From a virus: a stretch of DNA of 22,811 bases. The translations under genes were made by a program, and so were the position numbers. The stretch spans positions 1 to 22,811 of IMG/VR virus record IMGVR_UViG_3300005918_000145; one strand, 5' to 3'. Shown piece by piece: positions 1,667 to 20,829 of this stretch; positions within the stretch are counted from its first letter, which is position 1; each line of letters opens with the position of its first letter. Below the pieces are notes generated by a model, which was given only the letters and a program-made list of their open reading frames with translations, made no database searches and was not told the origin of the DNA.

Positions 1667-2355
1667 TTTAAGATCCCAGATGCTTCCATAAACTCTAATG
1701 TTTCATCTTGCGCTATCGCTTCAGGATAATCTTCAGCTTTCAACAATATAAACCAGCGGCCTCTCATCATAACACCCATGAGCCCTTCAAAACGTTCCCT
1801 CCCTATGGTTATCTGTTTGATTGCTCCGTTTTCTAATGTAACGCCTTCTGGTATTTTTGTAAGCATGACAACCTTTGTGTTTTCCCACCATTCACCGCAG
1901 CACTTTATTTGATAATCTTCAAGGACAAACACATGATCTATTATTTCTTTGTACCCACTAAAAACTCTAACGACTCTCTGCGTTGGGATATTCCCACTTA
2001 CCCGGTTCGTTTTTAATTTCGGGCAAGATCCTTCCCACGGAATTTCAATGCGCCGTGTAACCGTCAGCCCAAACTCGAAGGGAGATCCAATCTCTTCGTA
2101 ATCACCATAATCGCTCCCCAACCGGATAAACCCAAAATCACCGAGAGCTAGTTCATTTAAAAACGCATCAACAGCTTGGACAATCGGATCGTCATCGTGC
2201 CAATCGTAGGATAAATATACCCCTATGTAAGCGCCATCGGGGTTTTTAAACGAAGACTCGATGCTTGGCTCCAGTCCCGCCAGCGCCTCAGAGAACCCTT
2301 CAGCGCGCTTCTCATCAACGACTATCGCTATTTTGTCTGTATTCTCATTGAACAT
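1663..2355 (-). CDS. Promoter-driven accessory protein of unknown function (moron candidate)
   Basis: The frame is open up to an ATG at 2433, but that codon overlaps the -10 of the promoter at 2429-2457 and so cannot be in that transcript. The ATG at 2355 has a good GAGGAG site and starts MFNENTDKIAIVV, giving 230 residues. The N-terminal half is strongly acidic around residues 46-100 (YDWHDDDPIVQ, GSDYGDYEEIG). The C-terminal half is beta-rich with KCCGEWWENTK near residue 155. I do not recognise a family. The gene lies between the gp10-like gene and tail genes, where phages often carry cargo, and it has its own regulated-looking promoter. An acidic, possibly nucleic-acid-mimicking surface would fit an anti-defence or regulatory protein, but that is inference only. 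Confidence 0.75.
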   Translation of the reverse strand: MFNENTDKIAIVVDEKRAEGFSEALAGLEPSIESSFKNPDGAYIGVYLSYDWHDDDPIVQAVDAFLNELALGDFGFIRLGSDYGDYEEIGSPFEFGLTVTRRIEIPWEGSCPKLKTNRVSGNIPTQRVVRVFSGYKEIIDHVFVLEDYQIKCCGEWWENTKVVMLTKIPEGVTLENGAIKQITIGRERFEGLMGVMMRGRWFILLKAEDYPEAIAQDETLEFMEASGILK

Positions 2356-2428: not shown

Positions 2429-2457
2429 AGCATATCCGTTTACGGATATTTTGTCAA
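2429..2457 (-). promoter_or_regulatory. Sigma70-type promoter for the 230-residue cargo gene
   Basis: On the minus strand TTGACA (2457-2452) is followed by exactly 17 bases and TATGCT (2434-2429). The -35 is a perfect consensus and the -10 matches at four of six positions. Transcription would start near 2422, leaving a leader of about 65 bases before the ATG at 2355. The promoter lies just after the gp10-like gene, inside an otherwise continuous late gene array. Confidence 0.75.
2432..2449. promoter_or_regulatory. Operator-like perfect palindrome inside the promoter spacer
   Basis: ATATCCGTTTACGGATAT has two perfect 8-base arms around a central TT. It fills nearly the whole spacer and the first bases of the -10, so a bound protein would block RNA polymerase. 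TATCC/GGATA half-sites are known for some Xre-family regulators (HipB binds such half-sites with a wider gap). The binding protein is unknown. Confidence 0.65.
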
Positions 2458-3001: not shown

Positions 3002-3377
3002 TTGACATCACCCACCCGTTCAACACCGTTTCGAACTTGACCTCACCTTCCGGCATCAAAGAACCCTTCTCAAGCGTGATATTTTCCCTGAACAGCCTGG
3101 GAGACCGAGACGCCTTATCTCCGCCTTTCATCCTATACAGAACCAACACATCAGCATCCGTGTGCTCTATAAACACCTTCAGCCCTTCAAGAAGCTGTTC
3201 GTCTATGTGCTCATCATCGTAAATTACGCCGTACCAATCATGCTTGGAATCCGTCCCATTGATTTCGTCCAACGATTTAACAAGGTGAACTTCGCCCTCC
3301 AATCCTGCAAAAGAATCGATTGATGCTTTCGGGTCTTTCGCGTCAGCACATGATTGAACGACAAACAGGGTTATCAT
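2988..3377 (-). CDS. Small GT-A-like protein at the end of the glycan cassette
   Basis: This 129-residue protein starts at an ATG coupled to the methyltransferase stop (ATGA). The order of elements resembles a stripped-down GT2/GT-A enzyme: a first strand MITLFVVQSC, a strand plus acidic motif WYGVIYDDEHID (residues 48-59), a helix EQLLEGLKVFIEHT, a strand ADVLVLYRM, and PRLFREN. The GT2 enzyme at 8954-9667 has the same succession (FILDFDEKMSDELKDFL, then ADVVCVSRI, then ARLIRRD). At about half the normal length it lacks a full acceptor domain, so it may be a degenerate or accessory subunit. The family call is a pattern match by eye; the coding call is solid because the gene is packed between two coupled neighbours. 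Confidence 0.5.
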   Translation of the reverse strand: MITLFVVQSCADAKDPKASIDSFAGLEGEVHLVKSLDEINGTDSKHDWYGVIYDDEHIDEQLLEGLKVFIEHTDADVLVLYRMKGGDKASRSPRLFRENITLEKGSLMPEGEVKFETVLNGWVMSNDKS

Positions 3378-3922
3378 TTGGTTCCTTTTCTGAACACTAC
3401 ATCCAGGGTGCAGCTTTTATTGAGAGGGATGGTATTCACCTGAATAAGTTCTAGCCCCTTCAACCTTGGGGTAATCCGCTCAATAAATGGAACTCCGACA
3501 TTCACACGATGAGAGGGATTGCCACCGTCTTCGACAGTAGGATAGCGTCCCCCAAGCATGTCAGGCAAAAGCAGCACAATCACGCCACCTTTTTTCAGCA
3601 GCTTGGCCCATCCCAGCAGACAATCTATTATCGCTCCTTCCGTGGGCAGGTCCTCCAACATATGAGAAGAGAATATGTAATCCACAAGGCCATCGGGGGC
3701 AAACGTGACAGCATCACCTTTGATGACATCTTCACCTACCTGCTCAACCGCTATTGGCTGAGGTGCTTGATCAACATGAAGGCAATCGTCTTTCAACAAT
3801 GGACAATTACCACAGCCCATATCAAGCCCTTTCCCGATTAAGTGTTTCTCCACAAACGAAATGTTATATTCGAAACTCGGTCTAATGTTATCGAGTACCG
3901 TCTGCAATCCCGTCATTCCCAT
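3374..3922 (-). CDS. Class I SAM-dependent methyltransferase
   Basis: This 182-residue protein has motif I GLDMGCGNCPLL (residues 32-43), an acidic residue at the end of strand 2 (HVDQAP), DYIFSSHMLEDLP (81-93) in the motif IV region, and the LKKGGVIVLLLPD strand (109-121). These are the standard Rossmann-fold methyltransferase landmarks. The HMLEDLP segment resembles small sugar- or lipid-modifying methyltransferases of the UbiE/Methyltransf_11 type rather than DNA methylases, and no NPPY or PC motif is present. The start is ATG 3922 with AAGGAG. It sits between a GT8 enzyme (one base gap) and the small GT-A-like gene (ATGA overlap), so methylation of a glycan is the likely role. The substrate is inferred. 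Confidence 0.8.
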   Translation of the reverse strand: MGMTGLQTVLDNIRPSFEYNISFVEKHLIGKGLDMGCGNCPLLKDDCLHVDQAPQPIAVEQVGEDVIKGDAVTFAPDGLVDYIFSSHMLEDLPTEGAIIDCLLGWAKLLKKGGVIVLLLPDMLGGRYPTVEDGGNPSHRVNVGVPFIERITPRLKGLELIQVNTIPLNKSCTLDVVFRKGTK

Positions 3923-3923
3923 C

Positions 3924-4619
3924 TTACACTCCTTGATTTACAGCCAACGCGTGAGCATCCCATAGGTCCCGATATTCTTGAGATAATCTTGACGTAAGGC
4001 CCGGTTTAAAAATGTAATGCAGCATCCGGATGTCATCACATTTCTTGTTCGTTACTGTCGTGTATTTCCCGTGAAGCTCGGTTATGTCGCTTTTGTTAAA
4101 GTATTCGTTATAAACGGCCTGGTCCCGCCCCCATGTCCCAGGCTGTTTTTGATGCTTCAATACGGCTTCATATGTTCCCGTATTAAGATACTTCTTCCCG
4201 ACACATATGAACCCACCAAAGAACTGTTTTCTCGGACTTTCCCATACCATGCCGAGGTCAGTAGCCGGCAAATCAGCCAAGCTCCCCAGGCAGATAACGT
4301 CGGCATCGCTGAATATTACCCTGTCATACCCTTTGATATTGAACATTTCATGGCTCCAATAACCGGGCCATTCTTTGTTGTGCTGTTTGTATTTCGCTGT
4401 ATCTACCTTATGGATTATCAGGTTTTCGTACAATGCGTGAAGCTCATCAAGGCTGCCGTCTATTGATAGATGGTCATCCATATCAGTGCAAAATATATAA
4501 CACGGGATATCGAGGCCGCTATTCATCTGCAAGCTCCGCAGAGCAACTTGCGCCATAGTAAAGTAATTACATGCGTGACGCTGGTTCTTGGTGACAACCA
4601 TGGCAAAACAGGTTTTCAC
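3924..4619 (-). CDS. Family 8 glycosyltransferase (GT-A, DxD)
   Basis: This 231-residue protein shows the GT8 pattern: an N-terminal strand (FAMVVTKNQRHACNYF), a helix MAQVALRSLQ, a strand PCYIFCTD, and the metal-binding FSDADVICLGSL (residues 103-114, DAD at 105-107). Then follow GGFICVGK and the late WGRDQAVYNEYF (about residues 163-174), where GT8 enzymes have the acceptor-side GDQxxxN motif. HYIFKPG near residue 203 resembles the final HxxGxxKPW metal ligand. The start is GTG 4619, overlapping the deacetylase stop (ATGTGA), with AAGGAG five bases upstream. It probably transfers a hexose from a nucleotide sugar to the cassette's glycan. Donor and acceptor cannot be read from the sequence. 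Confidence 0.8.
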   Translation of the reverse strand: MKTCFAMVVTKNQRHACNYFTMAQVALRSLQMNSGLDIPCYIFCTDMDDHLSIDGSLDELHALYENLIIHKVDTAKYKQHNKEWPGYWSHEMFNIKGYDRVIFSDADVICLGSLADLPATDLGMVWESPRKQFFGGFICVGKKYLNTGTYEAVLKHQKQPGTWGRDQAVYNEYFNKSDITELHGKYTTVTNKKCDDIRMLHYIFKPGLTSRLSQEYRDLWDAHALAVNQGV

Positions 4620-5176
4620 ATTATCTCCTTGATAAACATATATTCTTTATCATTTAAAGAAGCATAGAAATCGAATCTATGCTCAAGGCCCCTGTCTCCC
4701 AGGCATTCCGTCATATGACCTTGGATTCGTTCTTCTGGATTATCACTTGCTAAATATGTACGGAGGCCAGCAGGTCTTTTATTGTCATTCTTTGGCACAT
4801 CTGCTACCCAATACCCTTTTTCCATCAACCCCTCATAGGTGCCTCCAGATATACGCCATCCGGGGGCTTTAAATCCTTTGGTAAGCCCTAACCGTTCAAC
4901 CCTATCAAGGCAATCCAGTGCTTCAAGCTTGGTCCAATTCTGACATTCAGGCCCATCATGACTCCAGCCATGCGGGATCATATCGACCCACGGGATTTCC
5001 TTTATTTCTTCAAGCCAAACAGGGGAACACCTTCCAACGATAGTGAAAAGGTTTACTTTCAGTTGCGGTATCTTTTCTTTCAATTTAAACAATAAATCTC
5101 GCCTATCGCAATTAAGCCCTAGTATGCCATTTTCACAAAAATCATCGAACTCTAAGATATAGGGCATTATATCCAT
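4616..5176 (-). CDS. Polysaccharide deacetylase family protein (CE4/NodB-like)
   Basis: Up to 186 residues. FDDF (residues 10-13) matches the catalytic/metal Asp pair, IPHGWSHDG (67-75) carries the metal-binding His pair, and KGFKAPGW (100-107) matches the third NodB motif (RxPY/W). The spacing is compressed but in the right order. Enzymes of this fold remove N- or O-acetyl groups from sugars such as GlcNAc using a divalent metal. Two starts are possible: ATG 5176 (overlap of ten bases with the preceding gene) or ATG 5167 (TAATG overlap with a GAGATGG site). The second gives 183 residues and keeps all motifs. Next to two acetyltransferases and an aminotransferase, it suggests that acyl state on an amino sugar is adjusted. 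Confidence 0.8.
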   Translation of the reverse strand: MDIMPYILEFDDFCENGILGLNCDRRDLLFKLKEKIPQLKVNLFTIVGRCSPVWLEEIKEIPWVDMIPHGWSHDGPECQNWTKLEALDCLDRVERLGLTKGFKAPGWRISGGTYEGLMEKGYWVADVPKNDNKRPAGLRTYLASDNPEERIQGHMTECLGDRGLEHRFDFYASLNDKEYMFIKEIM

Positions 5177-6021
5177 CTCGTTATTTCTTTTACCGTTTTA
5201 CGAAAAGTGAAATCTTTAACATCGATTCTGCATTGTGCCGCAATTTCATTTCTTTTATCAGGATAGCGCAAAAAATAGTCTACCTGTGCTGTTAATTCGT
5301 CCAGGTCTTTATATGTTGGAATAGCCTTGGATATGTCTTTAAGCCCTACGTTTTCGTCTGATATGCAGAGGCACTCGCTACTCCTAAAAATGTCCAAAAT
5401 CCTAACAGCTACAAACCCGGCTAACCTCATGTCCTCATGCGCTGAGTAAAAGGACAATCGCCCTTGGCTGAAAAGACTACCTAAAGAACGGTTGTCGATG
5501 TAATCACCTTTATAATCGACCTTATTTATCAGATCGCCCAAAGCCTTATCCCATCCAACACCTACGAGGCAAATCCTATATTTGCCAGCTTCTATAAGGC
5601 GCCTCACCGCGTCAATTCTTTTCCCATGCCTCATCGCCCCTACAAAGATTATGTCATACTTAATCTCTCTCCGAGGACCGAACCCTTTTGACGATGCACC
5701 CAGCAAGACTGAGGTTTTATCTCTGCCTGCCATAAAGCTATTTGAAAGAACAAATATGTGTTCAAACTGTTTTGCGAATTCAGGCCACTCGCTGCTCTCC
5801 ACTAAGTCCGGGTGGGAATACACCCAACAAAACCTTCGGGGCGCCGACATACGATGCCCCGAGGAATACAACCCAAATAGATAAAAATCCAAGTCAGCAT
5901 TTTCTTTTACGACTTCGTACCCCTGGATAATGAACGCTGCTTCTAAGTCTCGTTTCACCCAATAATCGCCATCTTTTATATTGTTCATGCAGTCCGACAA
6001 CGATATTATCCGTATTTTCAT
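5167..6021 (-). CDS. CgeB-like GT-B glycosyltransferase (first copy)
   Basis: This 284-residue protein has an N-terminal strand (MKIRIISLSD), a second Rossmann half beginning IKYDIIFVGAMRHGKR (about residues 120-135), a strand YRICLVGVG, and a C-terminal ILDIFRSSECLCISDENVGL (residues 228-247). The last is the nucleotide-sugar binding end typical of Glyco_trans_1_2/CgeB proteins, where a strand ends next to a conserved acidic residue. It starts with ATGA coupling to the preceding GNAT gene. CgeB-like enzymes act on surface or spore-coat glycans. A related protein is encoded at 6888-7850; both contain IIFVGA or VLFVGA followed by a basic turn. The exact sugar is unknown. Confidence 0.75.
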   Translation of the reverse strand: MKIRIISLSDCMNNIKDGDYWVKRDLEAAFIIQGYEVVKENADLDFYLFGLYSSGHRMSAPRRFCWVYSHPDLVESSEWPEFAKQFEHIFVLSNSFMAGRDKTSVLLGASSKGFGPRREIKYDIIFVGAMRHGKRIDAVRRLIEAGKYRICLVGVGWDKALGDLINKVDYKGDYIDNRSLGSLFSQGRLSFYSAHEDMRLAGFVAVRILDIFRSSECLCISDENVGLKDISKAIPTYKDLDELTAQVDYFLRYPDKRNEIAAQCRIDVKDFTFRKTVKEITRWI

Positions 6022-6467
6022 GATGCTCTACCGGCGTGTGCTAAATAAGAGATTTTCCTAACCCTCTTCAGCCCCAGAGAATCCCAAAATGGCCATAAGA
6101 AGGATTTAGTTGTGTGCTCTTCCAAAAACCGTATCCCTCTCTCTTCCATCATCGGGATGCCTTTTAAGATTGAATATTTATAAAAACCTTTTTTTCTGTG
6201 CTTTGGGTTGCATATCCCTGTATGAAATATCCCTGTACTGATTTTGTCATCAACTATAAAGAAAACAGTAGAAACAACTTTTCGTCTTTTCGTAATGAAG
6301 AATATATGTGCATTCCCTGGGACATTCCATTTGACCCCGGTTAACGATTCCCATTGTTTAACCAATGCGTTAGGCACCTCCGGCTCATCAAAAGACATGG
6401 ACTTATACCCTTTTGCGAGGATAGGTTCCGTCAGATTCAAGTCGGCTATCCGCCCTTTGAAAAACAC
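6018..6467 (-). CDS. GNAT-fold acetyltransferase, second of two
   Basis: This 149-residue protein contains IFFITKRRKVVSTVFFIVDDK (strands 2-3) and GIFHTGICNPKHRKKGFYKYSILKG (motif A region), where HRKKGFYKY takes the place of the usual R/QxxGxG/A acetyl-CoA loop. FLEEHTTKSFLWPFWDSLGLKRV at the end matches the motif B helix and the N-terminus of strand 6 in GNATs. The start is GTG 6467 behind AAGGGG, and it overlaps the upstream GNAT by 22 bases. The acetyl-CoA loop lacks the second Gly, so catalytic competence is uncertain. I considered the Mu Mom family, which is also GNAT-like, but see no specific match. Confidence 0.6.
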   Translation of the reverse strand: MFFKGRIADLNLTEPILAKGYKSMSFDEPEVPNALVKQWESLTGVKWNVPGNAHIFFITKRRKVVSTVFFIVDDKISTGIFHTGICNPKHRKKGFYKYSILKGIPMMEERGIRFLEEHTTKSFLWPFWDSLGLKRVRKISYLAHAGRAS

Positions 6468-6901
6468 ATTACCCCTTCCGAAACAGACTCACGCACCCAA
6501 CCATTTCTGCGATACATCTTCATCGCTTTGCTATTTTCAGATATGATATAGCCGTATAGTTTATGCAAACTTAGACGTTCGAAAGCATGCTCCTCAACTT
6601 TCTTCAGTATCATTCCACCCAGGCCAATCCCTCGGTATTCCGCTTCACCAATATACACCCCGGGGTCAGCACTTAGGCTTTGAGTATCGATTCCGTTCAA
6701 AGAGGCATATCCGATATCTACGCCTTTAAAATTAACAATCCAGTAGATATCACCTCTTTTGCTCATGCCTTGATACCATTGCTTTTGGCTTTCTTCCGTG
6801 ATGACCGGGTCTGTAAGGAGGTATTTCGTCACTTCGGGTGACATCCGCCATAGGCGTACTCTTTCCAAATCAGACTCTTCAATGTCTCTAAGCGTTATCA
6901 T
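6446..6901 (-). CDS. GNAT acetyltransferase, PseH/RimJ-like
   Basis: This 151-residue protein is a textbook small GNAT: ITLRDIEESDLERVRLWRMSPEV at the N-terminus, YWIVNFKGVDIGYASLNGID (strands 2-3), GVYIGEAEYRGIGLGGMILKKV (residues 81-102, with the R-G-I-G-L-G acetyl-CoA loop), and LYGYIISENSKAMKMYRRNGW (118-138), where N-S-K-A-M-x-M-Y is motif B. The W-R-x-x-P-E-V opening is shared by N-acetyltransferases that act on amino sugars, such as PseH. Next to a DegT aminotransferase this suggests N-acetylation of a 4-amino sugar. The ATG at 6901 overlaps the preceding gene by 14 bases. The substrate is inferred. Confidence 0.85.
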   Translation of the reverse strand: MITLRDIEESDLERVRLWRMSPEVTKYLLTDPVITEESQKQWYQGMSKRGDIYWIVNFKGVDIGYASLNGIDTQSLSADPGVYIGEAEYRGIGLGGMILKKVEEHAFERLSLHKLYGYIISENSKAMKMYRRNGWVRESVSEGVMCFSKGG

Positions 6902-7850
6902 TTATGAACTTCTCAGCCAGTTTATTGAACGTCCAGTTCTCAAGAACCTTCTCCCGCCCCTTCATGATAATCTCATGACCTTCCATGATATGTTTTTGAT
7001 AGTATTTGATCTTAGCAACCAAATCATCGATGTCACGCCACTGGATAATCTCATCGGATTTAAACACGCCGGACAAATCAAAATCTGACTCTATGTAGAT
7101 AAGCCCCGTCGCAAGAGTGTTCGGCAGTCTCGTAGAAGAATACCTGGTTCGCGGAAGCTTTTCGTTGTAGAACATGCCGATGCTTAAGGTATAATCCTTT
7201 GACAGCTCCACAAGCTCTTTACCAAACTTTACAGGGATATTCCCACCGCTCCCAACAACGTCAACTTTTATCCCGGCCTGCCCCAGGGCAGCAATCACGC
7301 CTTTTCTATATGGCGTTAATGCACCAACAAATAAGACAGTATCGTTCTTTTTATGTTCAACTAATTTAAAGATGTCTTCGTCTGTGGGGTGCAGCACCCA
7401 ATTAACTTCTGATCTCCACATAGGAGTTCCATATAAGGCAGCCGAGTAAATCTTTAGTTTAGGAATGCCAGCGTCCAACAAATCATGATGAAATTGAAAT
7501 CTCTCCGGGTATGCGTCTCCAAAAAAAACACTAACCGAACAGTCTGTTTTCGCCTGAACAGCTTTAACCTCAGCCACGGTTATAGGGTTGTCCCTGATAG
7601 AAGAAGCCCCTTTGCAGCTTCCTCCTAAGTGAAGATGATCAATCTTATCCGGGAACCCACCAGCGCTTATATCCCCTAATGACAATTCTCCATATCTACG
7701 GAATGCGTTTTGCCATGGGGTATTTGTAGTACCGTGTAAGTTCCTGTAATGTATTTTTGGGTTTACCTTCGGGGCCACTGCCTTCTTAGGCGTGCGCTTC
7801 TTAGTGCCTTCCACCTTGGTAGTACGTTTCTTCGCTCGTGCCTTTACCAT
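6888..7850 (-). CDS. CgeB-like glycosyltransferase with a Lys/Arg-rich N-terminal tail
   Basis: This 320-residue protein has two parts. Residues 1-29 are almost purely basic (12 Lys/Arg, such as KKRTTK and KKRTPKK) and read like a histone-tail or nucleic-acid-binding extension. From about residue 33 a GT-B-like domain follows, with DTVLFVGALTPYRKGV (about 170-185) and RYSSTRLPNTLATGLIYIES (about 236-255), the latter in the nucleotide-sugar site where CgeB relatives have R-x-x-x-x-L-A. The ATG at 7850 has an AGGAG site eight bases upstream and no later ATG before the core domain, so the tail appears to be translated. It overlaps the end of the aminotransferase gene by 50 bases. The tail could bind nucleic acid, acidic glycans or a virion surface. 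Confidence 0.75.
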   Translation of the reverse strand: MVKARAKKRTTKVEGTKKRTPKKAVAPKVNPKIHYRNLHGTTNTPWQNAFRRYGELSLGDISAGGFPDKIDHLHLGGSCKGASSIRDNPITVAEVKAVQAKTDCSVSVFFGDAYPERFQFHHDLLDAGIPKLKIYSAALYGTPMWRSEVNWVLHPTDEDIFKLVEHKKNDTVLFVGALTPYRKGVIAALGQAGIKVDVVGSGGNIPVKFGKELVELSKDYTLSIGMFYNEKLPRTRYSSTRLPNTLATGLIYIESDFDLSGVFKSDEIIQWRDIDDLVAKIKYYQKHIMEGHEIIMKGREKVLENWTFNKLAEKFINDNA

Positions 7851-8952
7851 TATGATTTCTCCTGCTAAATGAATTAATAGCTCCGATCACTGTATCCACC
7901 TCAGCATCTGTCAACCCCGGATGCATCGGCAACGATAGGATTTCCTCAAAGTATTTCTCGGCATTTGGAATGGTTGGGATATTCCCGTAACATTCATATA
8001 AATGAATCGGTTTATAATGGACTCCGGTCATAATCCCTCGGTCCTTCAGGTAAACGCTCAAATCGTTTCTTCTTTGACACCTGATACAATAGATATGCCA
8101 GGAGGACTTAGAATCGTCCGTATCCATCATTGGGGTTTCAACATCCAACAGCCCCTTGGTATATCTTTCGGCTATTTCTTTTCTTCGAGCATTCATCATT
8201 TCAAGCTTCGATAGCTGAACCAGGCCGATAGAGGCCGCGATATCGTTCATGTGACATTTTAATCCTATCTCGCCCACTGAATATTCCCACCAATAACTCT
8301 TGTTTTGATCGCTCCTGTTCCATGTGGATTTATCAATCCCTAACCACCTGAGCTTTTTGGCCCTCTCGTACATCTCTTCATCGTCCGTGGTGATGGCCCC
8401 TCCATCCCCCATGGCCAAATTCTTTACAGCATGGAAGCTGAAAGCCCCCATTGTCCCGAGACTCCCGCATCTGGCCCCTTTATAGACAGCTCCAGCGGCA
8501 TGGGCGGAATCTTCTATGATAGGTATATCCCCGGCGATTTCTTTCAGCCGATCCATGTCTACAGGCCGTCCAGAATAGTGGACAGGGATGATCGCCTTTG
8601 TTCTTTTGGTAATCTTTCGAGCAACATCCTCCAGGTCAATTAATAAATTATCGTCCACATCCGCGAATATGGGTTCTGCTAGATTATATTTCACTACGTG
8701 AGCGGTCGAAACAAACGTCATTGTGGGGACAATCACCTCGTCCCCGTGATTAATTCCCAATAGCTTTAACGACAAGTCCAAAGCCGCAGTTGCAGAATTG
8801 AGTCCAACCGTATAACGGCACCCAATGTATTCAGAGAATTGCTTTTCGAATTGTTCCGTCTTTGGACCCAAGCCAATCCATCCAGATTCAAAGATGCTCC
8901 TCAAGCTCTCCAGCTCCTCATTTCCCATATATGGCTTAAATAGACTAATCAT
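7801..8952 (-). CDS. DegT/DnrJ/EryC1/StrS-family sugar aminotransferase
   Basis: With the ATG at 8952 (one base after the GT2 stop) the protein has 383 residues. LFKPYMGNEELE opens as in the family. The PLP site is clear: GLNSATAALDLSLK (50-63) cups the phosphate, EDSAHA (147-152) holds the PLP-pyridine Asp and His, and SFHAVKNLAMGDGG (172-185) carries the Schiff-base Lys177. GVHYKPIHL near the C-terminus matches the conserved substrate loop. These enzymes transfer an amino group from glutamate to a keto-sugar nucleotide (PseC, ArnB and WbpE types). The open frame also extends upstream to 9003, but that would overlap the GT2 gene by 50 bases without a ribosome site. No dehydratase making the keto sugar is in the window, so the host or another locus must supply it. 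Confidence 0.9.
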   Translation of the reverse strand: MISLFKPYMGNEELESLRSIFESGWIGLGPKTEQFEKQFSEYIGCRYTVGLNSATAALDLSLKLLGINHGDEVIVPTMTFVSTAHVVKYNLAEPIFADVDDNLLIDLEDVARKITKRTKAIIPVHYSGRPVDMDRLKEIAGDIPIIEDSAHAAGAVYKGARCGSLGTMGAFSFHAVKNLAMGDGGAITTDDEEMYERAKKLRWLGIDKSTWNRSDQNKSYWWEYSVGEIGLKCHMNDIAASIGLVQLSKLEMMNARRKEIAERYTKGLLDVETPMMDTDDSKSSWHIYCIRCQRRNDLSVYLKDRGIMTGVHYKPIHLYECYGNIPTIPNAEKYFEEILSLPMHPGLTDAEVDTVIGAINSFSRRNHNGKGTSEETYYQGGRH

Positions 8953-8953
8953 C

Positions 8954-9667
8954 TCAAGCCCCGTACATCGCGAATTCAGGTGCCAGCCTGGCCTCAAAAA
9001 CATCCGGCTCTAAGCCGAGCGTCTTGCGCCTTGCCTGCGTGGTGGCCCAAAGGATTTCAATATTTTCTCGGTCCCTAGCGTCTGCCTTACCGTGGTAGTG
9101 AATGATGTCCGTCCGCTCCCGGGTAATTTGTTTTTCCGGACCGATCAAGACGTGATGTGGAGAATTGATGAAAAACATCTTCGGGTCTCTCCGGATTAAA
9201 CGTGCCTGCCAATCGGGGTACTCCCCTATAGTGTGTGACGGCACCGGGAACCCTTGCTCATCCAGAAGCGCAAAGGGGGAATCGTCATGGCGCATGGATT
9301 CATGCGATATCCGAGACACGCAAACTACGTCGGCGTCCATGGGCATGCCATCCTTATCTACGCTTTCAAGGAAGTCTTTAAGCTCATCGGACATCTTTTC
9401 ATCAAAATCCAGGATGAAGCAAACTTCACCCGTTGGAATGTATGTCAAAGAAATGTTCCGCTGCATACTCTGAGCCGCATGATACCCACGGTCATAAAAA
9501 TGCTGGTACACTTCGCATTTCGGCCATTGGTTCAGCTTATGAACGGTGAAGTCCTGGCTGCCGCCGTCGATAACAATCACCCTGGACACCCAGTCAAGAT
9601 CGTGGAAGTCGCTAATCACCGGGTCCACCATCTTCTCTTCGTTTAACGATTGCATTAGGATGATCAT
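8954..9667 (-). CDS. Family 2 glycosyltransferase
   Basis: This 237-residue protein is a compact GT2: an N-terminal MIILMQSLNEEKM (where E10-E11 is the usual N-E-E), the nucleotide-binding IDGGSQDFT (33-41), GYHAAQSMQRN (61-71), and the metal-binding LDFDEKM (86-92, DFD). PDWQARLIRRDP (about 155-166) matches the acceptor-side strand. It starts at an ATG overlapping the stop of the large fusion gene (ATGA) and ends one base before the aminotransferase. The order resembles family enzymes that transfer one sugar to a glycan or glycoprotein. The acceptor is not known. Confidence 0.85.
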   Translation of the reverse strand: MIILMQSLNEEKMVDPVISDFHDLDWVSRVIVIDGGSQDFTVHKLNQWPKCEVYQHFYDRGYHAAQSMQRNISLTYIPTGEVCFILDFDEKMSDELKDFLESVDKDGMPMDADVVCVSRISHESMRHDDSPFALLDEQGFPVPSHTIGEYPDWQARLIRRDPKMFFINSPHHVLIGPEKQITRERTDIIHYHGKADARDRENIEILWATTQARRKTLGLEPDVFEARLAPEFAMYGA

Positions 9668-11670
9668 ATTAATTTCTCCAAAGCCTTTTTAACGATAAGC
9701 GGTGAAATGGTATTGATGCACGGGGAATTACACTGCTCGTTACGCCCCCAGCAATGGGTCATGCTTTTGCACACCTTCAGCATGTCCGGCTTCAGGTTAA
9801 TGATTTTACATCCTTGGACTTTGGGTTGGACCACCCTCGGCGGCGCCGGACCATAAACGACCACGGCATCCGTTCCAACAGCACCGGCCAGGTGAGACAA
9901 GAAGCTGTCCACGACAACAGCCGCTTTTGCGTGCTGCATGATCCAAGCTGATTCTTGCCAAGTGGTCTTTCCACGAAGATCGACCGCACCCTCACATCGC
10001 AAATCACTCGGGCCTCCCAACTGAATAAATTTCTTATCACCCAGGCTTTTAATGACTTGATCCATATGCGGGTAAGATCGATACTCTTTGCTTCCACCCG
10101 TTGTATGCACCACGATGTAATCGGTGTAAGAACCCCAGTGGGTTTCCCACCATTGGGGGCAAACGGGGGCAATAAAGATATCGTCCGATTCAACCTTCGT
10201 GAAATACGGATACATGCTGTGTAAAGTCACATCTAAATTGTTAAACCCGCCGTTGATGATATGTTCACCATGGGGGTTGTAGACGACCTCATATCGCTTC
10301 AGGTGCCGTTCATCCCACTCGATAATTTCGTCAAGATACGGGTTCCCAAAGACCACCCCTGCAAAGACCTTCTGGGTCATATAAACCAAGGGCATATCCG
10401 GATGCCGTTCCTTGATTCCCTTAAAGCACTGGGTCGTCATGAGGACATCCCCGGCAGAAGAATGCTGGGCGAACAGCACCGCTTCAATCTTCTTCTCAGA
10501 TTTTCGTTTCTTGCCAGCTTCGTTCAGGAGGTCGTTGATGTTGCTCACATCAGCCACCCAGTTTTTAGAAACGTCCAGCCCGTTCTGAATCATGTCTTTT
10601 CGATCCGAATCAGCAACCGACAAAATAGCGTCTCGGATATCTTCCACTCGGCAAGCCTTGGATTCCACAGAATCGTTCCGGCCTTCCATGCCACCCATCG
10701 GTATATACGAAAGGTCCTTGCACAAAACCATGAACCCGGCATCTTTTACCAGTTCCGACTGAGCCGTGGTATCAGATGCAACCACAGGCGTTCCGCAAAG
10801 CATGGCCTCAAGAGGTGTCCATGATAAACCCTCTTGCATACTGCAATTCACCAGGCAGTCAATGGCATTGTAAATACCCGGCATTTTCGATCGGTCGTAA
10901 GAAACGTCTGGTTGCTTGGCCACCAGGTCTCCATTGACAGCGCCGTTGGCTTGAGCAATCTGCTTCAGGTTATGGTATCCGTTCATGTCAGTATGGAGAT
11001 AAAGGACCATCTCAGGGTTGGTTTTCTTCGCTTCAAGAAACGCCTTCACAAGACGCTCGGGGGATTTCCGAATCTGGTTCTTTCCGACAAACCCGAATAT
11101 CGTTTTACCTATCGGGATGTTCGGGAATACTTCCATCCTTGCAGTGAATTTATCGGACGGGACAAATGTTTCCCAACCGTTTAATCTAGGCCGATAATAC
11201 TGGATTTTAGGCACGTGAGGTTTCAGCTGATCGTAGCCGTACTGGGAATAAACGCACGGGAAGTCAAGATCATTCAGAGGTCCTACCCAGCTTTTCTGGA
11301 GGTCCCAGGTATCGTAAGGGAATATCGCAATCCACTTGAACTTCTTCGCGTCCCGTAAAGACCGGATGGCGTTCCAAGCCGATAGGTATCGCCAGAAGTC
11401 TATGCCGACCATGCACAGGTAATCGAATTGCGTTTCTTGAATAAGGGAGATAAGGCGATTAGTTCCCCAGTAATCATTGGAGGTCGTACCGTTCACAAGA
11501 GTGTAGGGCAGCGGGTCAAACAGAACCGCAGAGGGGTTGGTTTCGTTCACAACAAAGCAGGCAGCCTGATATTTGTCGTGGTCAAGGTCCGACAAAATCG
11601 CGGCCAGCATGTTGGCATTTCCAGTTGTTCCGAGAGGGTTTTCACCCACGAAGAGAACTCGTTTTTTCAT
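9664..11670 (-). CDS. Two-domain glycosyltransferase: GT4 fused to GT9 (heptosyltransferase-like)
   Basis: This 668-residue protein is a fusion. Residues 1-385 form a GT4-type GT-B enzyme: TIFGFVGKNQIRKSPERLV (190-208) starts the donor half and NCSMQEGLSWTPLEAM (275-290) carries the E-x7-E pair (E280, E288), followed by GTPVVAS. A Lys-rich linker (GKKRKSEKK, 386-394) leads into a GT9 domain with AQHSSAGDVLMTTQCFKGIK (401-420), VVHTTGGSKEYRSYP (520-534), LGGPSD (551-556) and VVVDSFLSHLAGAVG (585-599). These are the landmarks of the ADP-heptose:LPS transferase family. A Cys-rich end (CKSMTHCWGRNEQCNSPC) may bind metal. The ATG at 11670 has AGGAGG. It opens the glycan cassette and probably adds two successive sugars. 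Confidence 0.9.
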   Translation of the reverse strand: MKKRVLFVGENPLGTTGNANMLAAILSDLDHDKYQAACFVVNETNPSAVLFDPLPYTLVNGTTSNDYWGTNRLISLIQETQFDYLCMVGIDFWRYLSAWNAIRSLRDAKKFKWIAIFPYDTWDLQKSWVGPLNDLDFPCVYSQYGYDQLKPHVPKIQYYRPRLNGWETFVPSDKFTARMEVFPNIPIGKTIFGFVGKNQIRKSPERLVKAFLEAKKTNPEMVLYLHTDMNGYHNLKQIAQANGAVNGDLVAKQPDVSYDRSKMPGIYNAIDCLVNCSMQEGLSWTPLEAMLCGTPVVASDTTAQSELVKDAGFMVLCKDLSYIPMGGMEGRNDSVESKACRVEDIRDAILSVADSDRKDMIQNGLDVSKNWVADVSNINDLLNEAGKKRKSEKKIEAVLFAQHSSAGDVLMTTQCFKGIKERHPDMPLVYMTQKVFAGVVFGNPYLDEIIEWDERHLKRYEVVYNPHGEHIINGGFNNLDVTLHSMYPYFTKVESDDIFIAPVCPQWWETHWGSYTDYIVVHTTGGSKEYRSYPHMDQVIKSLGDKKFIQLGGPSDLRCEGAVDLRGKTTWQESAWIMQHAKAAVVVDSFLSHLAGAVGTDAVVVYGPAPPRVVQPKVQGCKIINLKPDMLKVCKSMTHCWGRNEQCNSPCINTISPLIVKKALEKLI

Positions 11671-12314: not shown

Positions 12315-12764
12315 TTAAGAACCCGGAGTAATTATGGTTTCATTGTAATCACTGTAAGTCATATCCCGGCCAGTCTGGGGCTCCGTCTTAAACCCGGCAT
12401 CAATCTTCGAACCAGCCAGCTCATAGGCTGAGACACCAGCAAACTCAAAAGCGTTCTCTTCCTGAGCCTTCTCGAAGTTCTTATCCATCACATCTATAAT
12501 CCGCATGTAATGTTCGAAACGATGGTTAAGATAAATGGCCTTGAACCGAAATTTAGCCGCCGACTCAGACATCAGAAAGAAAAACAAATGTCGTTTAGAA
12601 CGATCCAGCAACCACTTCAGCTTAAACTCGCCAGTTTGCGGAAGGTCCCATCCGGTATCGCGCTCGGCAGCGTCAATGGCGTTTCCGTAATCAGCGTCGG
12701 CAAGGCTGGACGTTAAGCCCTTCACCTCAGCCTGGAGCTGCGTGATCATCTCAGTCCTGGTCAT
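12315..12764 (-). CDS. Probable head-tail connector (gp6-like adaptor)
   Basis: This 149-residue protein is mostly helical: MITQLQAEVKGL, DADYGNAIDAAERDTGW, FKLKWLLDRSKRHLFFFLMSESAAKF and RFEHYMRIIDVMDKNFEKAQEENAFEF. The bundle of four helices with a DxGW turn is reminiscent of gp6/gp15-type connector adaptors that sit under the portal ring. The first ATG is 12764 (overlapping the preceding gene by 14 bases); ATG 12749 one base after the stop is an alternative and has a closer AGGA. The gene order (HTH protein, this, closure candidate) fits the portal-to-tail junction. The family call is inferred from fold-like pattern and position. Confidence 0.55.
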   Translation of the reverse strand: MTRTEMITQLQAEVKGLTSSLADADYGNAIDAAERDTGWDLPQTGEFKLKWLLDRSKRHLFFFLMSESAAKFRFKAIYLNHRFEHYMRIIDVMDKNFEKAQEENAFEFAGVSAYELAGSKIDAGFKTEPQTGRDMTYSDYNETIITPGS

Positions 12765-13215
12765 CTTCTTTCACCTTCTCAAATTCTTTAATGATCAAAG
12801 CTATGGATTCATCGTTGGGAGTGCTTTTGCCAGAGCGCCACCTGGATACGGCCTGATACGAAACTCCAAGTCTCTTCGCTGCGGCTGAAATGGACGGACT
12901 TTTTTGGATTATTGCTTCCAGCTTGGGTAGGTAGGTTGTTTCAGGCAATGGAACGTCTAAAAGCTCCACTTTGGGTTCTTCAAACCCGGTAGGCGCGATA
13001 TTGGTATCATCGAGCCACGGGGTCTCTTCCACATCCTGTTCGATTTTTGTTTCAGTCACAGCAAAGGGACTCTCTGCCAGGACACGCACAACGGTCGACC
13101 CGTCACGCACTTCTCTTAAGATGTTATCTGGAATCGGGGAAACGGCATCGTCAAACACCGTCCCCTTCCTCCAGATTTTAGCACCTTTTAACGTAACTAA
13201 AATTTCGACTTTCAT
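12751..13215 (-). CDS. Structural-cluster protein with a C-terminal helix-turn-helix domain
   Basis: This 154-residue protein has an N-terminal beta domain (MKVEILVTLKGAKIWRKGT then IPDNILREVRDGSTVVRVL) like small proteins often found just after the major capsid gene. An acidic linker (TKIEQDVEETPWLDD) follows, then a helix-turn-helix at about 108-131, where SISAAAKRLGVSYQAVSRWR has the classic helix 2-turn-recognition helix spacing, followed by GKSTPNDESIALI. The C-terminal domain resembles Cro/Xre-type or YdaS-type DNA binding. A DNA-binding protein among head genes is unusual. It could regulate the phage, pack DNA or mark a DNA-contact point in the capsid. The start is ATG 13215 with AGGAG nine bases upstream. 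Confidence 0.75.
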   Translation of the reverse strand: MKVEILVTLKGAKIWRKGTVFDDAVSPIPDNILREVRDGSTVVRVLAESPFAVTETKIEQDVEETPWLDDTNIAPTGFEEPKVELLDVPLPETTYLPKLEAIIQKSPSISAAAKRLGVSYQAVSRWRSGKSTPNDESIALIIKEFEKVKEDDQD

Positions 13216-17110: not shown

Positions 17111-18817
17111 TTATTTCTCCTTACCCTTTCCCTCTTTTTCCTGCTTTTCAGGCGCCGTGCCGCCCCTACCTTTATTCTGTCTGTCCCCCTGGCCACTTCC
17201 ATCCTTCTTGGGTTCCCCTGGTTTCGGTTGCGCCGGTTCAGCCTGCATCCTCTCCTGAATGCCCTCGGCGTCCATGGCCAGCGGTAATTCCGGATACAGC
17301 TTCTTTTCCGTTTCGTACTGGAGCCTGAGCTTTCTGAAGTTCCCGAAGCCCATCTTCCTGGTTAATTCGCTCAAGGGGATTCCGGCCGTATCGTGCAATG
17401 AAGCGTGCTTGCTCCCAAAGAACGCTCTGGAACGCGCCTCGGCGTCGTTCACCTCGCTCGTTGGGAAGTTGATGTCGATTAGCGCCTCTGGTTTTCTCTT
17501 GACCTTCTTAAATGTCGGTTCCTGGTTCTTAAAGGAAACAGCCTCTTCCACCTCAAAAACGTCCGGAAAGTCGCTCACCTTGCTTTTCAGGAAGAACACG
17601 CCACTCCAGAAATCGAATCGGAGGAACTTTTCCCAGTAGCAGACCTCATCGCTTATCCGGTCGCTCATGGGGCCACGGGATTCCTTAACGGATGCAAAGG
17701 TGCCGCTTGATGTTCCACTGGAAACATCTGCCGGTTCATTCAGGCCGCTCGTCACCTGTTGCAAGATGTCCGTATCGCTGTCCGATATATTGGGGAGGTT
17801 TGGATTTAAGACTTTGGCTTCCATGTTGGGACCCAGCACCAAAGACCCGCCAGGTGTCTTTGGTGCCGCAATACCCGTTTTCTCCTTGTCGGCGTCCGAC
17901 ATCCTCAGCCATTCAATCCAGCTCCTGATATCCGTAAACTGAAACGCCCACATATACGCTCCAGCCGATTTCTTGTGGTCAATCTCGTACTTCTTGAGGT
18001 TCTCCCAATAGTTCAGCCACTCCAGGATGGTTCGGACGTGGCCGATGTTTCGTTTGGTGATATAAGACTGGTCCCACTCGATGATGAACCGCTTAAACCC
18101 GCCGATTTCCTTGAACTTACGCCTTCGGCTGTTCTTCAGCGCTTCAGCGTTAAACCCCTTCTGCTTCTTGGCAACGGACATTAATTCGGGGTATCTGGCT
18201 ATAAATATGGAGGGGATTTGTTCGTCGATCCCTTTCGCATCGTCCTTGATGCAATAGATCAACGGCATAGTCGTTTTGGAGGGGTGATAGATGATACCGC
18301 TATCCACGGTTCCGCTCTGGACACAAGTCGGGTCTATGAAGTCAATCTCGATGAAACCATCGTCGTGGACGGTCGCGCAAAGCCGCAACTCGCCTTCCAC
18401 CTTGGCCCTGACCACATACTTCGGCCAGAAGTTGTAAAGGCGGTTCCGGTGGTCCAGCTCAATCTCTTCGATGGCGTCCTGTATTTGCTGAATGTCCGAA
18501 CTGGTTTCAAACCCGTAGCCGGCCATTCGGCCGCCAAGACCACGGATGGCCGTATTGACCTGGGGAGTTCTCTGGAACTTCAGCCAGCTTTCTTCCTGGA
18601 GCCGTTCCCGGGTATAAGCAGGATCGTCCTTGTCAGACGAACCAGAGGCTGAAAAACCGTCCGGATCAGTGGCGCCGCGATAAGACCCAGAGCTTGAGTC
18701 ATACTGCCACGGGGCGCTCATGCTGATGGAGGGGAACTCCCGCGCCATTGCTTCGAGGTATTTATCCGGTATATCGTCGAGTGTAAGTTCTGGGTCTATT
18801 TGTTTTTCTTCAGTCAC
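17111..18817 (-). CDS. Portal protein
   Basis: This 568-residue protein fits a portal by size and position between terminase and protease. PQVNTAIRGLGGRMAGYGFE (about residues 85-104) resembles the N-terminal portal segment, and DEVCYWEKFLRFDFWSGVFF (about 390-409) is the long-helix region. The C-terminus (residues 520-568) is a charged, Gly/Lys/Gln-rich tail. It starts at GTG 18817, since no other start codon is in frame before the stop at 18893-18895. The ribosome site is poor (GGTGACTAT before GTG), and the codons just upstream form a mini frame ATG-GTG-ACT-ATG-TGA (18828-18814) overlapping the start. It forms the dodecameric ring for DNA entry. The subfamily is likely lambda-like but not certain. 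Confidence 0.85.
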   Translation of the reverse strand: MTEEKQIDPELTLDDIPDKYLEAMAREFPSISMSAPWQYDSSSGSYRGATDPDGFSASGSSDKDDPAYTRERLQEESWLKFQRTPQVNTAIRGLGGRMAGYGFETSSDIQQIQDAIEEIELDHRNRLYNFWPKYVVRAKVEGELRLCATVHDDGFIEIDFIDPTCVQSGTVDSGIIYHPSKTTMPLIYCIKDDAKGIDEQIPSIFIARYPELMSVAKKQKGFNAEALKNSRRRKFKEIGGFKRFIIEWDQSYITKRNIGHVRTILEWLNYWENLKKYEIDHKKSAGAYMWAFQFTDIRSWIEWLRMSDADKEKTGIAAPKTPGGSLVLGPNMEAKVLNPNLPNISDSDTDILQQVTSGLNEPADVSSGTSSGTFASVKESRGPMSDRISDEVCYWEKFLRFDFWSGVFFLKSKVSDFPDVFEVEEAVSFKNQEPTFKKVKRKPEALIDINFPTSEVNDAEARSRAFFGSKHASLHDTAGIPLSELTRKMGFGNFRKLRLQYETEKKLYPELPLAMDAEGIQERMQAEPAQPKPGEPKKDGSGQGDRQNKGRGGTAPEKQEKEGKGKEK

Positions 18818-18828
18818 ATAGTCACCAT

Positions 18829-18884
18829 AAAAAAAGCCCGGGTCAGGGAGAGAAGGGGAACATACTCTTCCTGGTCCAGGCTTT
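18829..18884 (-). terminator. Intrinsic terminator just before the portal gene
   Basis: On the minus strand the arms AAAGCCTGG (18884-18876) and CCGGGCTTT (18841-18833) form a 9-bp stem with one G-U pair. A further 4-bp inner stem lies inside, and T residues run through 18835-18829. It closes the small transcription unit with the Com-like gene. Because it is also in the path of late transcripts reaching the portal, antitermination or read-through must occur. Confidence 0.65.
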
Positions 18885-18968: not shown

Positions 18969-19148
18969 CTAGAATCTGTTCTTACATCCGCACTTCTTAC
19001 ATTTAATTGTGAACCCGTGCTTTTTATTTAAAAATGATGTTATCGCAAAAAACAAGACCCCGTCACATCTGACACAGCACACCTTTCTTGGCCGCTGATC
19101 CTCTTTTTTATTGATGTAATCATCGTGAGATTGCGTTCTTGCGACCAT
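18969..19148 (-). CDS. Com-like zinc-ribbon protein with its own promoter
   Basis: A 59-residue frame runs from ATG 19148 (a stop lies two codons upstream, so this is the only start) to TAG 18969-18971. RKVCCVRCDGVLFFAI (residues 21-36) and GFTIKCKKCGCKNRF (45-59) give two CxxC knuckles, and the second has the (I)xIKCxxCGxxN form of phage Mu Com and related regulators. The promoter at 19169-19198 begins a leader of only about 14 bases, and the intrinsic terminator at 18829-18884 ends the unit. The sequence is AT-richer than the portal gene. Function is probably RNA or DNA binding control, by analogy to Com; the target is unknown. Confidence 0.7.
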   Translation of the reverse strand: MVARTQSHDDYINKKEDQRPRKVCCVRCDGVLFFAITSFLNKKHGFTIKCKKCGCKNRF

Positions 19149-19168
19149 TCTTTAGCTATCCAGTTTTT

Positions 19169-19198
19169 ATGTTATCCAAATGAATATCCATTTGTCAA
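19169..19198 (-). promoter_or_regulatory. Promoter of the Com-like zinc-ribbon gene
   Basis: On the minus strand TTGACA (19198-19193) is followed by an 18-base spacer and TAACAT (19174-19169). The layout matches the cargo promoter at 2429-2457: both read CTTGACAAA at the -35 and GGATA before or into the -10, then TAAAAAC. It lies downstream of the zinc-ribbon gene that ends at 19213. Confidence 0.7.
19178..19193. promoter_or_regulatory. Operator-like near-palindrome in the promoter spacer
   Basis: AAATGAATATCCATTT on the plus strand is a 16-base dyad with one mismatched pair. It sits between the -35 and -10, the same position as the palindrome of the other promoter, although the sequences differ. 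A repressor could occlude the promoter. Confidence 0.5.
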
Positions 19199-19212
19199 GT
19201 AAAAAAATGCAG

Positions 19213-19392
19213 TTATGGATATTTCTTATCCCAACCAGGCCAGTTTATGGGGCCTTCGATTTTAGTAACCTCCCTGAAGGTGCATTTCTCACAGTCATTC
19301 ACATATCTCACGGGAGGAATGCAAAGGTGTCTGCCGATGTCCCATCTTAAGGCTGCTCCGCATCTTCTACAGATTACGATTTCGTCTTTCAT
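19213..19392 (-). CDS. Small zinc-ribbon protein downstream of the nucleotide hydrolase
   Basis: With the ATG at 19392, which overlaps the preceding TGA (ATGA) and has a GGGAG site, the protein has 59 residues. IVICRRCGAAL (6-16) and VNDCEKCTF (32-40) are two CxxC knuckles of a zinc ribbon, with a conserved HLCIPP between them. A TTG at 19410 would add six residues but lacks a site. The C-terminal half (EGPINWPGWDKKYP) is Trp/Pro-rich. This differs from the Com-like proteins by having no IKCxxC motif. Its role is unknown; coupling to the hydrolase gene suggests coexpression. Confidence 0.65.
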   Translation of the reverse strand: MKDEIVICRRCGAALRWDIGRHLCIPPVRYVNDCEKCTFREVTKIEGPINWPGWDKKYP

Positions 19393-19775
19393 GGCCCGGA
19401 CTCCCGCCAATTTTCTGAAATCTCATCCTGGGTTGGGACATCGCTTCTACAACCTCGATAAGCCACTTCAACGCTTGAACTCCTACCGCACTCCTTAAAC
19501 TCCAGAAGCGCCAGGATATTCCAGGCCAAGTGCGCCAAGTGAGGCAAGCCGCTCTCCTCATCCAAATCATCCGATGCCAGAAGATGCCGCCACAGAGCGT
19601 CCATGTACCTTTCTTCAGCGTTCTCGACGTTCCGCCAGCTATTCCTGGAATACTTCTCAGTACCGAATGTCCCTACCTTCGCCACTTCCATGAGCGCCCG
19701 CCTGAAGTCCAGAAGCACCCCCGCCTGAATCTTACCGGCATCGTGCTTTAGTGGGTCAACCTTTAATTCACCCAA
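19389..19775 (-). CDS. DUF5664-like (MazG-type) nucleotide pyrophosphohydrolase
   Basis: This 128-residue protein starts at TTG 19775 within the end of the RNA ligase gene. The pattern KHDAGKIQAGVLLDFRRALMEVAKVGTFGTEKYSRNSW (10-47), then ERYMDALWRHLL and DEESGLPHLAHLAWNILALLEF (about 72-93), is that of the DUF5664 family (dATP/dGTP diphosphohydrolase N-terminal domain), related in fold to MazG. The GxxKYxxxNW, RHLxA and D/E-SGxxHLxHxxWN motifs are present. Such enzymes remove or reshape dNTP pools and are frequent in phages, some with modified DNA bases. The first seven codons are nearly identical to those of the RNA ligase gene because both lie in copies of the 22-bp repeat. Confidence 0.7.
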   Translation of the reverse strand: MGELKVDPLKHDAGKIQAGVLLDFRRALMEVAKVGTFGTEKYSRNSWRNVENAEERYMDALWRHLLASDDLDEESGLPHLAHLAWNILALLEFKECGRSSSVEVAYRGCRSDVPTQDEISENWRESGP

Positions 19776-19777
19776 AA
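19756..19777. repeat. Direct repeat copy 1 (start of the hydrolase gene)
   Basis: A 22-base sequence beginning tcaacctttaat and ending cacccaaaa matches 20810-20831 at 21 of 22 positions. The single difference is one t/c. The copies are 1,054 bases apart and lie exactly at the start codons of two successive genes. This copy overlaps the last codons of the RNA ligase gene. Confidence 0.85.
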
Positions 19778-20829
19778 TTCATCCCCACATTTTTATTGAG
19801 TAATTCTTGAAACCATGGTCTGGCTTTGTTGGAAATCGACCTTCCTACATCTTTCAAAATAAGATTATTTTTTCCTAATGTGTCTGCCTCTTCTGCTGCG
19901 ATATCATTAACAATCCACCTTAGAAAATCACCCATTTTTTGGATCGTCGGTTCTTCCCCTTCAAAAATTTCAATTATTGCTTGATTCAACCTGTTTTCAG
20001 TGACAGCGTACTCAACAAATTCTCTAACATTATTAATTTTATCCACGTCAACATCTGCTATTTTCTTGACCTTCGATACTGAATGTTTTTCTCCCTTAGT
20101 TTTGAATATGTGCCTGGTCCCAGCGTATTCGGCTGTCCATACGATTCCTTCGCCAACGCCGGAAACATTAAATTTTTTTCCAACTGGACATTCATTTTCA
20201 ACTTGGTTAACTAACTCAACAAATTCATTTTGCGCTAACTCTGGGTAAGCAAAATCTACCGCTACTTCAAAAGTTTTAAAGTCGTTGATGTTGTAAATTA
20301 AATTTTCCGGATCTCTCAAATAAGTAGAATCTATATAATATGAATCACCTTCTGCTGGTACAATTTTAACAGCGAAGACAATAAACATTTTTGGTAGTTG
20401 ATGGATAGCGCAACCTCGATTAATCCCTTCACCACAGTATTCTCCAAAAATGCTAATTATTCCTGGATTTCCTTCATTAAAATAGAAATGGGAAACGAGG
20501 GCTATCATATCTCGAAAACTATCCTTTCTATCATTGCAAAATTGCCAAAAACCATTATTATCGGCTTCAATAGATAAGATCCTTTTCCTTGATTGTGTCC
20601 ATGTTTTTCCATTATTTGAAACACAAAAACCGCCATTCGACCCATGTAATTTCACAGTTCCATGAAAAGTGATGGTTGGCTTCTTTACATTGGGGTTAAA
20701 TATAGGTTCATTATCTTGATCTATCCCTTCAAACTGTGCTTGATGAACTACATTACGAATTACATCTCGGAATTGAGGAATTTTAGAAAATGAAACATGC
20801 CGAGCATTATCAACCTTTAATCCACCCAA
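19768..20829 (-). CDS. Rnl2-type RNA ligase
   Basis: This 353-residue protein carries the nucleotidyltransferase motifs: motif I TVKLHGSNGG (58-67, nucleophile Lys60, matching KxHGxN of T4 Rnl2), motif III SIFGEYCG (126-133), motif IV GEGIVW (226-231) and motif V FKTKGEKH (242-249). It would seal 3'-OH/5'-phosphate RNA ends through an AMP-enzyme intermediate; T4-type ligases undo host anticodon-nuclease damage. The start is TTG 20829 behind GGGAGG. No kinase partner is in the window. A hand count of one 60-base line gives 38% GC, against 53% in a terminase line. With the flanking direct repeats this suggests recent acquisition. Confidence 0.85.
   Translation of the reverse strand: MGGLKVDNARHVSFSKIPQFRDVIRNVVHQAQFEGIDQDNEPIFNPNVKKPTITFHGTVKLHGSNGGFCVSNNGKTWTQSRKRILSIEADNNGFWQFCNDRKDSFRDMIALVSHFYFNEGNPGIISIFGEYCGEGINRGCAIHQLPKMFIVFAVKIVPAEGDSYYIDSTYLRDPENLIYNINDFKTFEVAVDFAYPELAQNEFVELVNQVENECPVGKKFNVSGVGEGIVWTAEYAGTRHIFKTKGEKHSVSKVKKIADVDVDKINNVREFVEYAVTENRLNQAIIEIFEGEEPTIQKMGDFLRWIVNDIAAEEADTLGKNNLILKDVGRSISNKARPWFQELLNKNVGMNFG

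Follow-up and report, generated by a model that had tools for sequence, protein, structure and literature searches.

A unit of about 370 nt on the minus strand, immediately ahead of the head genes of an uncultivated phage, combines a promoter-like site, a small zinc-ribbon gene of the Com family, two tandem hairpins and an intrinsic terminator with which the second hairpin is merged. Judged from its sequence, the unit is probably a transcription attenuator operated by Com, a reading that we place slightly above even odds (about 0.55). The window, that is, the whole stretch of 22,811 nt that was analysed (IMGVR_UViG_3300005918_000145), carries every one of its genes on the minus strand, and was found without mismatch inside a 30,775-bp contig (G001), which comprises locus L001 and others.

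Zinc-ribbon gene, tandem hairpins and terminator

The unit begins at a promoter-like sequence (site 2; 19169–19198, minus strand) composed of a −35 hexamer TTGACA (19198–19193), an 18-nt spacer and a −10 hexamer TAACAT (19174–19169). It matches the consensus at 10 of 12 positions and is among the two best promoter-like hits of the scanned region. The first ORF after it (18969–19148, minus strand) encodes a zinc ribbon of 59 amino acids with the pattern CxxC...CxxC, and the gene is present in 20 of the loci compared. Alignment of the 20 members (A4) shows a four-cysteine ribbon of about 40–60 amino acids in which C25, C28, C50 and C53 are invariant, with an N-terminal part that varies among members. 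The Pfam model PF10122 (Zn_ribbon_Com) is matched by 13 of the 20 (best E-value 7.6e-7; only the L163 member lies above the curated cut-off), phrog_13819 (gpCom) by 11 (best 4.4e-7), and the PHROGs annotation 'translational regulator' by 14. The window's own protein matches neither the PF10122 nor the phrog_13819 model; it is too diverged to score alone, and its membership of the Com family therefore rests on its relatives. A second zinc-ribbon ORF, located in the tail region (584–814, minus strand) and kept in distant relatives (mostly 43–70% identity), displays a weak likeness to a translational regulator family.

Between the zinc-ribbon stop codon and the portal-like gene, a single conserved block was found in 11 of 11 relatives examined, with the order GAGCGCTTCAAGCGCC, linker, GAGCTTNNCNAAAGCC, terminator stem and T-run. 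In the window, the first hairpin (P1; 18916–18931, minus strand) reads GA-GCGC-UUCAA-GCGC-C, and the second (P2; 18879–18894, minus strand) reads GA-GCUU-CUCGA-AAGC-C, its 3' arm AAAGCC doubling as the 5' arm of the terminator. The terminator, AAAGCCTGG...CCCGGGCTTTTTTT (18829–18884, minus strand), precedes the portal-like gene and folds with about −24 kcal/mol (−22 to −31 kcal/mol among the units). Its upper stem covaries, with 8 pairs showing double changes across relatives. An A-rich arm ahead of the U-run is ordinary in terminators.

P1 is conserved in 20 units, with three pairs carrying compensatory double changes and 97.5% of cells paired, a value that none of 500 shuffles equalled. P2 is invariant (GAGCUU..C.AAAGCC in all 20 aligned units) though the terminator uses only its 3' arm, and because it never varies, covariation cannot test it. 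On its own, P2 is weak (−1.9 to −2.4 kcal/mol). Both P2 and the terminator need AAAGCC, and the full structures are mutually exclusive; when P2 is imposed on the window RNA, the fold loses about 9 kcal/mol of stability together with the base of the terminator. Of 20 units, only 15 have the same loop base in P1 and P2 (P = 0.04–0.07), which is suggestive only of co-variation between the loops.

The association of these hairpins with Com is well supported. In the sequences compared, the architecture GA-4bp-loop-4bp-C turns up once in every 12.7 kb of strand; all 18 distinct doublets found in 3.3 Mb of scanned strand sit in Com units, against an expectation of 0.13. The hairpin sequence selected for Com by SELEX is NGAGNNCC(N)2-3GAGNNCCNN, and its GA is essential (PMC6483171). 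The exact bipartite motif GAGNNCC(N)2-3GAGNNCC is found in P1 of L004 and L005 (GAGCGCCATCGAGCGCC) and of L179 (GAGCGCCTGAGAGCGCC). The window hairpins have 5-nt loops and share the architecture of the Com ligands, not the exact bipartite motif. Rfam at the gathering threshold gave no match to the window, and a permissive search returned nothing but matches far under that threshold, mir-128 among them.

The gene that follows the terminator (17111–18817, minus strand) is the first of the head operon and has 32 relatives by tblastn. No family model matched it, and it is named portal because of gene order, as the genes for an S49 head protease and for the capsid follow it. Elsewhere in the window, a cassette of about 8.3 kb between head/tail connector genes (3374–11670, minus strand) contains glycosyltransferases, a DegT/DnrJ aminotransferase, GNAT-like acetyltransferases and a methyltransferase-like ORF, a content that suggests synthesis of virion or host-surface glycans. 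An ORF of the dATP/dGTP diphosphohydrolase type adjoins an RNA ligase ORF (19389–20829, minus strand); these are possible nucleotide-pool or RNA-repair genes.

The zinc-ribbon gene and the RNA block are conserved together in 20 related sequences, in more than one position. In L013 and L051, the entire unit including its promoter is placed after the portal gene, and a version with a 40-aa Com-like protein lies ahead of portal in L046 and its kin. The zinc ribbon and RNA of L163 and L176 lie ahead of the prohead protease with one extra ORF between them, and L171 and L172 hold further versions. No promoter was seen before com in L163, L171 and L176. The unit, with its own promoter and factor-independent terminator at site 2 and its relocation in L013, displays the sequence hallmarks of a moron and evidently moves as a block. 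The initial annotation had proposed a cargo cassette, and for site 2 this was broadly right, the unit being self-contained and placed differently among phages; the Com gene, the hairpins and the terminator, which give it this character, had escaped notice.

A covariance model of the RNA (R1) had no match in distant relatives without the zinc ribbon. It matched a Desulfobacterales genome (L179) 3 nt after a Com-like stop codon, where the next gene encodes an HTH protein, far from head genes. The scan of about 1,270 genomes from three groups with R1 gave one match, a count that means little given the weak pre-filter. A DNA pattern scan of 389 genomes found no unit, and among named phages, searches at the DNA and protein level found no relative except a com-like ORF in a Vibrio phage.

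The two promoter-like sites

Site 2 had been paired with a second promoter-like sequence, site 1, at a separation of 16,740 bp. Site 1 (2429–2457, minus strand) consists of TTGACA (2457–2452), a 17-nt spacer and TATGCT (2434–2429). Its spacer palindrome, ATATCCGTAAACGGATAT (2432–2449), is a perfect 18-bp candidate operator that is clearly non-random; none of 500 shuffles was equally symmetric. The spacer dyad of site 2, CAAATGGATATTCATTTG (19177–19194), is an imperfect candidate operator with a symmetry of P about 0.018 relative to shuffles.

The words said to be shared by the two sites are all present on the plus strand: GTTTTTA at 19163–19169 and 2423–2429, TATCC in the same register (offset 10 at both sites), TTTGTCAAG shifted by one base (offset 27 at site 1 and 28 at site 2), and TAAAAA downstream, in plus-strand order, at each. 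The promoter with a spacer dyad that was described for both sites is likewise found on the minus strand, as TTGACA-17-TATGCT with ATATCCGTAAACGGATAT and TTGACA-18-TAACAT with CAAATGGATATTCATTTG. As had also been claimed, both start units outside the core structural genes, namely an ORF without relatives at site 1 and the Com gene, RNA and terminator at site 2. The site 1 ORF (1663–2355, minus strand; 230 aa) has no family match and no homologue among the relatives compared.

A scan for equally good intragenic hits, which had been named as the refuting observation, gave a divided result. Unanchored, the scan of the 30.8-kb contig found intragenic matches to site 2 that are better than site 1; with the −35 hexamer fixed, 7 of 1,469 background TTGAC[AT] sites resemble site 2 as closely as site 1 does, which lends modest support. 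Beyond generic promoter parts, the likeness of the two sites appears suggestive but weak.

Site 1 has closer kin outside the window. Three non-coding matches to TATCCGTnnACGGATA at up to three mismatches are present in the 30,775-bp contig, at site 1 (0 mismatches), L001:1681 (2) and L001:548 (3), where shuffled sequence gives 0.08 at up to two mismatches and 0.77 at up to three. All three share a common register, CCTTGNNN followed by 3 nt and the palindrome with the −10 at its end, and the palindrome type TATCC-N6-GGATA. The sister promoters (L001:539–600 and L001:1672–1740) lie before terminase-small-like and zinc-ribbon genes; they precede the terminase-small-like gene and an operon with a ParB/MT-A70 fusion and the large terminase, and by this gene content are evidently packaging-operon promoters, not cargo promoters. 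The repeated promoter family of the initial annotation thus exists, in the form of site 1, L001:539 and L001:1672, but site 2 is its weakest member, and the sisters open packaging operons. As a wider family, the palindrome promoter was discarded, since a collection-wide scan gave 55 matches, roughly the number expected by chance by a rough estimate; in that scan, two separate palindrome sites were found only in this phage. The fusion protein (L001:3097–4584, plus strand; upstream of the large terminase) consists of an MT-A70 adenine methyltransferase joined to the N-terminal and HTH domains of ParB, and was not found in 10 other unit-bearing or related records. HipB, an XRE-family repressor, recognises operators of the form TATCCN8GGATA (PMC3376134); the half-sites are those of site 1, but the site 1 spacing is N6, not N8, and the palindrome fails as a HipB operator.

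In the relatives, the position of the site 2 promoter is kept. TTGACA lies 330–380 nt upstream of portal in L002–L005, L007, L008, L010–L012 and L032, and immediately upstream of the Com-like gene in L037. The half-site words vary, mostly being of the TGTTAA type, and in L005 the operator words of the portal promoter recur in the terminase promoter. Such fast-changing operators at a fixed promoter would fit a repressor of drifting specificity, as a candidate only. In L003, L004, L010–L012, L032 and L007, the start codon of the Com-like gene is about 29–33 nt past the −35 hexamer, so near that the mRNA may be leaderless.

Genes of the HTH_3 type were searched for in the window contig and 16 relatives, and the window contig has one clear case, fused to a head-region protein. 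This protein (12751–13215, minus strand), encoded after the capsid gene, has a conserved N-terminal domain and a C-terminal DNA-binding domain that is swapped between HTH_3 and a C2H2-type zinc finger (comparison of L004, L005, L003, L013, L038 and L050). It was rejected as the operator-binding repressor: relatives replace the HTH by C2H2 fingers yet keep the operator words unchanged, so the operators are not accounted for by the HTH_3 fusion. A 64-kb relative has a CI/Cro-like pair, likewise rejected as the regulator, since it carries no copy of that relative's portal-promoter operator (TGTTAA type).

These observations bear on the idea that sites 1 and 2 form one cargo-promoter family under a shared phage repressor, which concerns the promoter only and is compatible with the attenuator. 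The spacer dyads at both sites, the GGATA beside the −10 and the TAAAAAC downstream that they have in common (7 of 1,469 background sites), and the two true sisters of site 1 speak for it. Site 2, though, shares with site 1 the half-site word GGATA and departs from it in palindrome spacing and register; the sisters open packaging operons, the window contig yielded no repressor gene, and the CI/Cro-like pair of the 64-kb relative comes without operator words of the TGTTAA type. A common family is therefore doubtful, at perhaps one chance in four.

Proposed attenuation and competing explanations

In the proposed attenuator, transcription from site 2 would produce Com and would normally be halted at the terminator. 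Accumulating Com would then bind both GA-stem-loop-stem-C hairpins, and Com-bound P2 would take AAAGCC and block the terminator, allowing RNA polymerase to read through into the head operon. Through the site 2 spacer dyad, a DNA-binding repressor would control the time at which the cassette is switched on. What the sequence itself shows is the anatomy of the unit, its conservation and covariation, the mutually exclusive pairing, the association of the RNA with Com genes and its resemblance to published Com ligands; that Com binds the RNA, that it antiterminates and that a repressor acts at the dyad is inferred. A weak P2 facing a strong terminator is as expected of a protein-stabilised antiterminator, and because the two share AAAGCC, a protein that holds P2 would favour read-through. 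Several points count against the attenuator: the extra ORF that separates Com from the RNA in L163 and L176; the HTH gene, rather than a head gene, that comes next in L179; the failure of the window's own zinc ribbon to score with the Com models; the invariance of P2, which puts it beyond a covariation test; the A-rich arm, ordinary in terminators; and the limited agreement of the P1 and P2 loop bases. An upstream promoter may also serve the head genes. The broader proposition, that the element is widespread in phages and that Com antiterminates through tandem hairpins, the second merged with the terminator, to time the capsid operon or other downstream genes, is put forward tentatively, at somewhat below even odds.

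Among the alternatives, the hairpins could be a 3'-UTR target for Com autoregulation or mRNA processing, with the terminator simply ending an independent moron. A unit with its own promoter and terminator that moves as a block, and hairpins directly 3' of the com stop codon, would agree with this. Such a role does not account for the overlap of P2 with the terminator in every unit or for the head genes downstream of most units, and since no promoter is seen before com in L163, L171 and L176, the transcript is not always independent. We regard this explanation as unlikely.

Less probable again is a translational switch like that of mom, in which Com would act on read-through transcripts and free the start region of the next head gene. 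This is the role in which Com is known (PMC6483171), and in the Vibrio phage the unit runs into a stem with the Shine–Dalgarno sequence of a methylase gene; here, the overlapped stem is a terminator that ends in a U-run and does not include the portal start region. The least probable reading is that the RNA acts in trans as a small RNA from the 3' end, for instance against a host system, as decoy or inhibitor, with Com as partner or chaperone; its strong conservation and the strong terminator at its end, while the N-terminal part of the protein varies, are outweighed by hairpins that match cis-acting Com ligands and a P2 merged with the terminator.

Relation to known systems and significance

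Com of phage Mu is the translational activator of mom, a single DNA-modification gene, and its site lies beside the translation inhibition stem of mom, which it partly overlays (PMC6483171). The Mu com-mom system and the present unit share a small CCCC zinc-ribbon gene and a GA-4bp-loop-4bp-C hairpin, which in mom is GA-AUGC-CUGCGA-GCAU-C beside the inhibitory stem (PMC6483171). They differ in that here no mom gene is seen, two hairpins stand in tandem, an intrinsic terminator is overlapped and head genes come next. In Vibrio phage ST2-1pr (MZ496293.1; L180:1480–1610), an unannotated 36-aa Com-like ORF is followed by the exact bipartite Com motif, and the Com-type hairpin there overlaps, by its 3' arm, the stem with the Shine–Dalgarno sequence of a dpnA-type methylase gene. 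The mom hairpin, SELEX RNA I, the Vibrio leader and both window hairpins display one GA-stem-loop-stem-C architecture. As an inhibitory stem is overlapped in mom and the Vibrio phage, and a terminator instead here, we infer control by transcription attenuation.

With antiterminators of the BglG/LicT type, the unit would share a protein-bound hairpin that overlaps and excludes a terminator. Their protein family is unrelated, and in the present case a phage carries the regulator gene immediately ahead of the RNA. Like phage morons, the unit comprises a promoter, a small gene and a terminator between core genes; unlike them, it has a conserved 3' RNA element and stands before genes that it could control. 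The Com family and its ligand were already known, and the tandem, terminator-merged element without a visible mom gene appears to be the new part; it was not found in Rfam, the family libraries or the literature searched, of which coverage was partial.

Com-type genes and hairpins thus travel together, with a terminator, in many uncultivated phages in which no mom gene is seen, and the natural hairpin variants could help to map Com recognition. If the terminator is controlled by Com, Com would represent a broader family of phage regulators, and the unit a new switch for the timing of capsid-gene expression.
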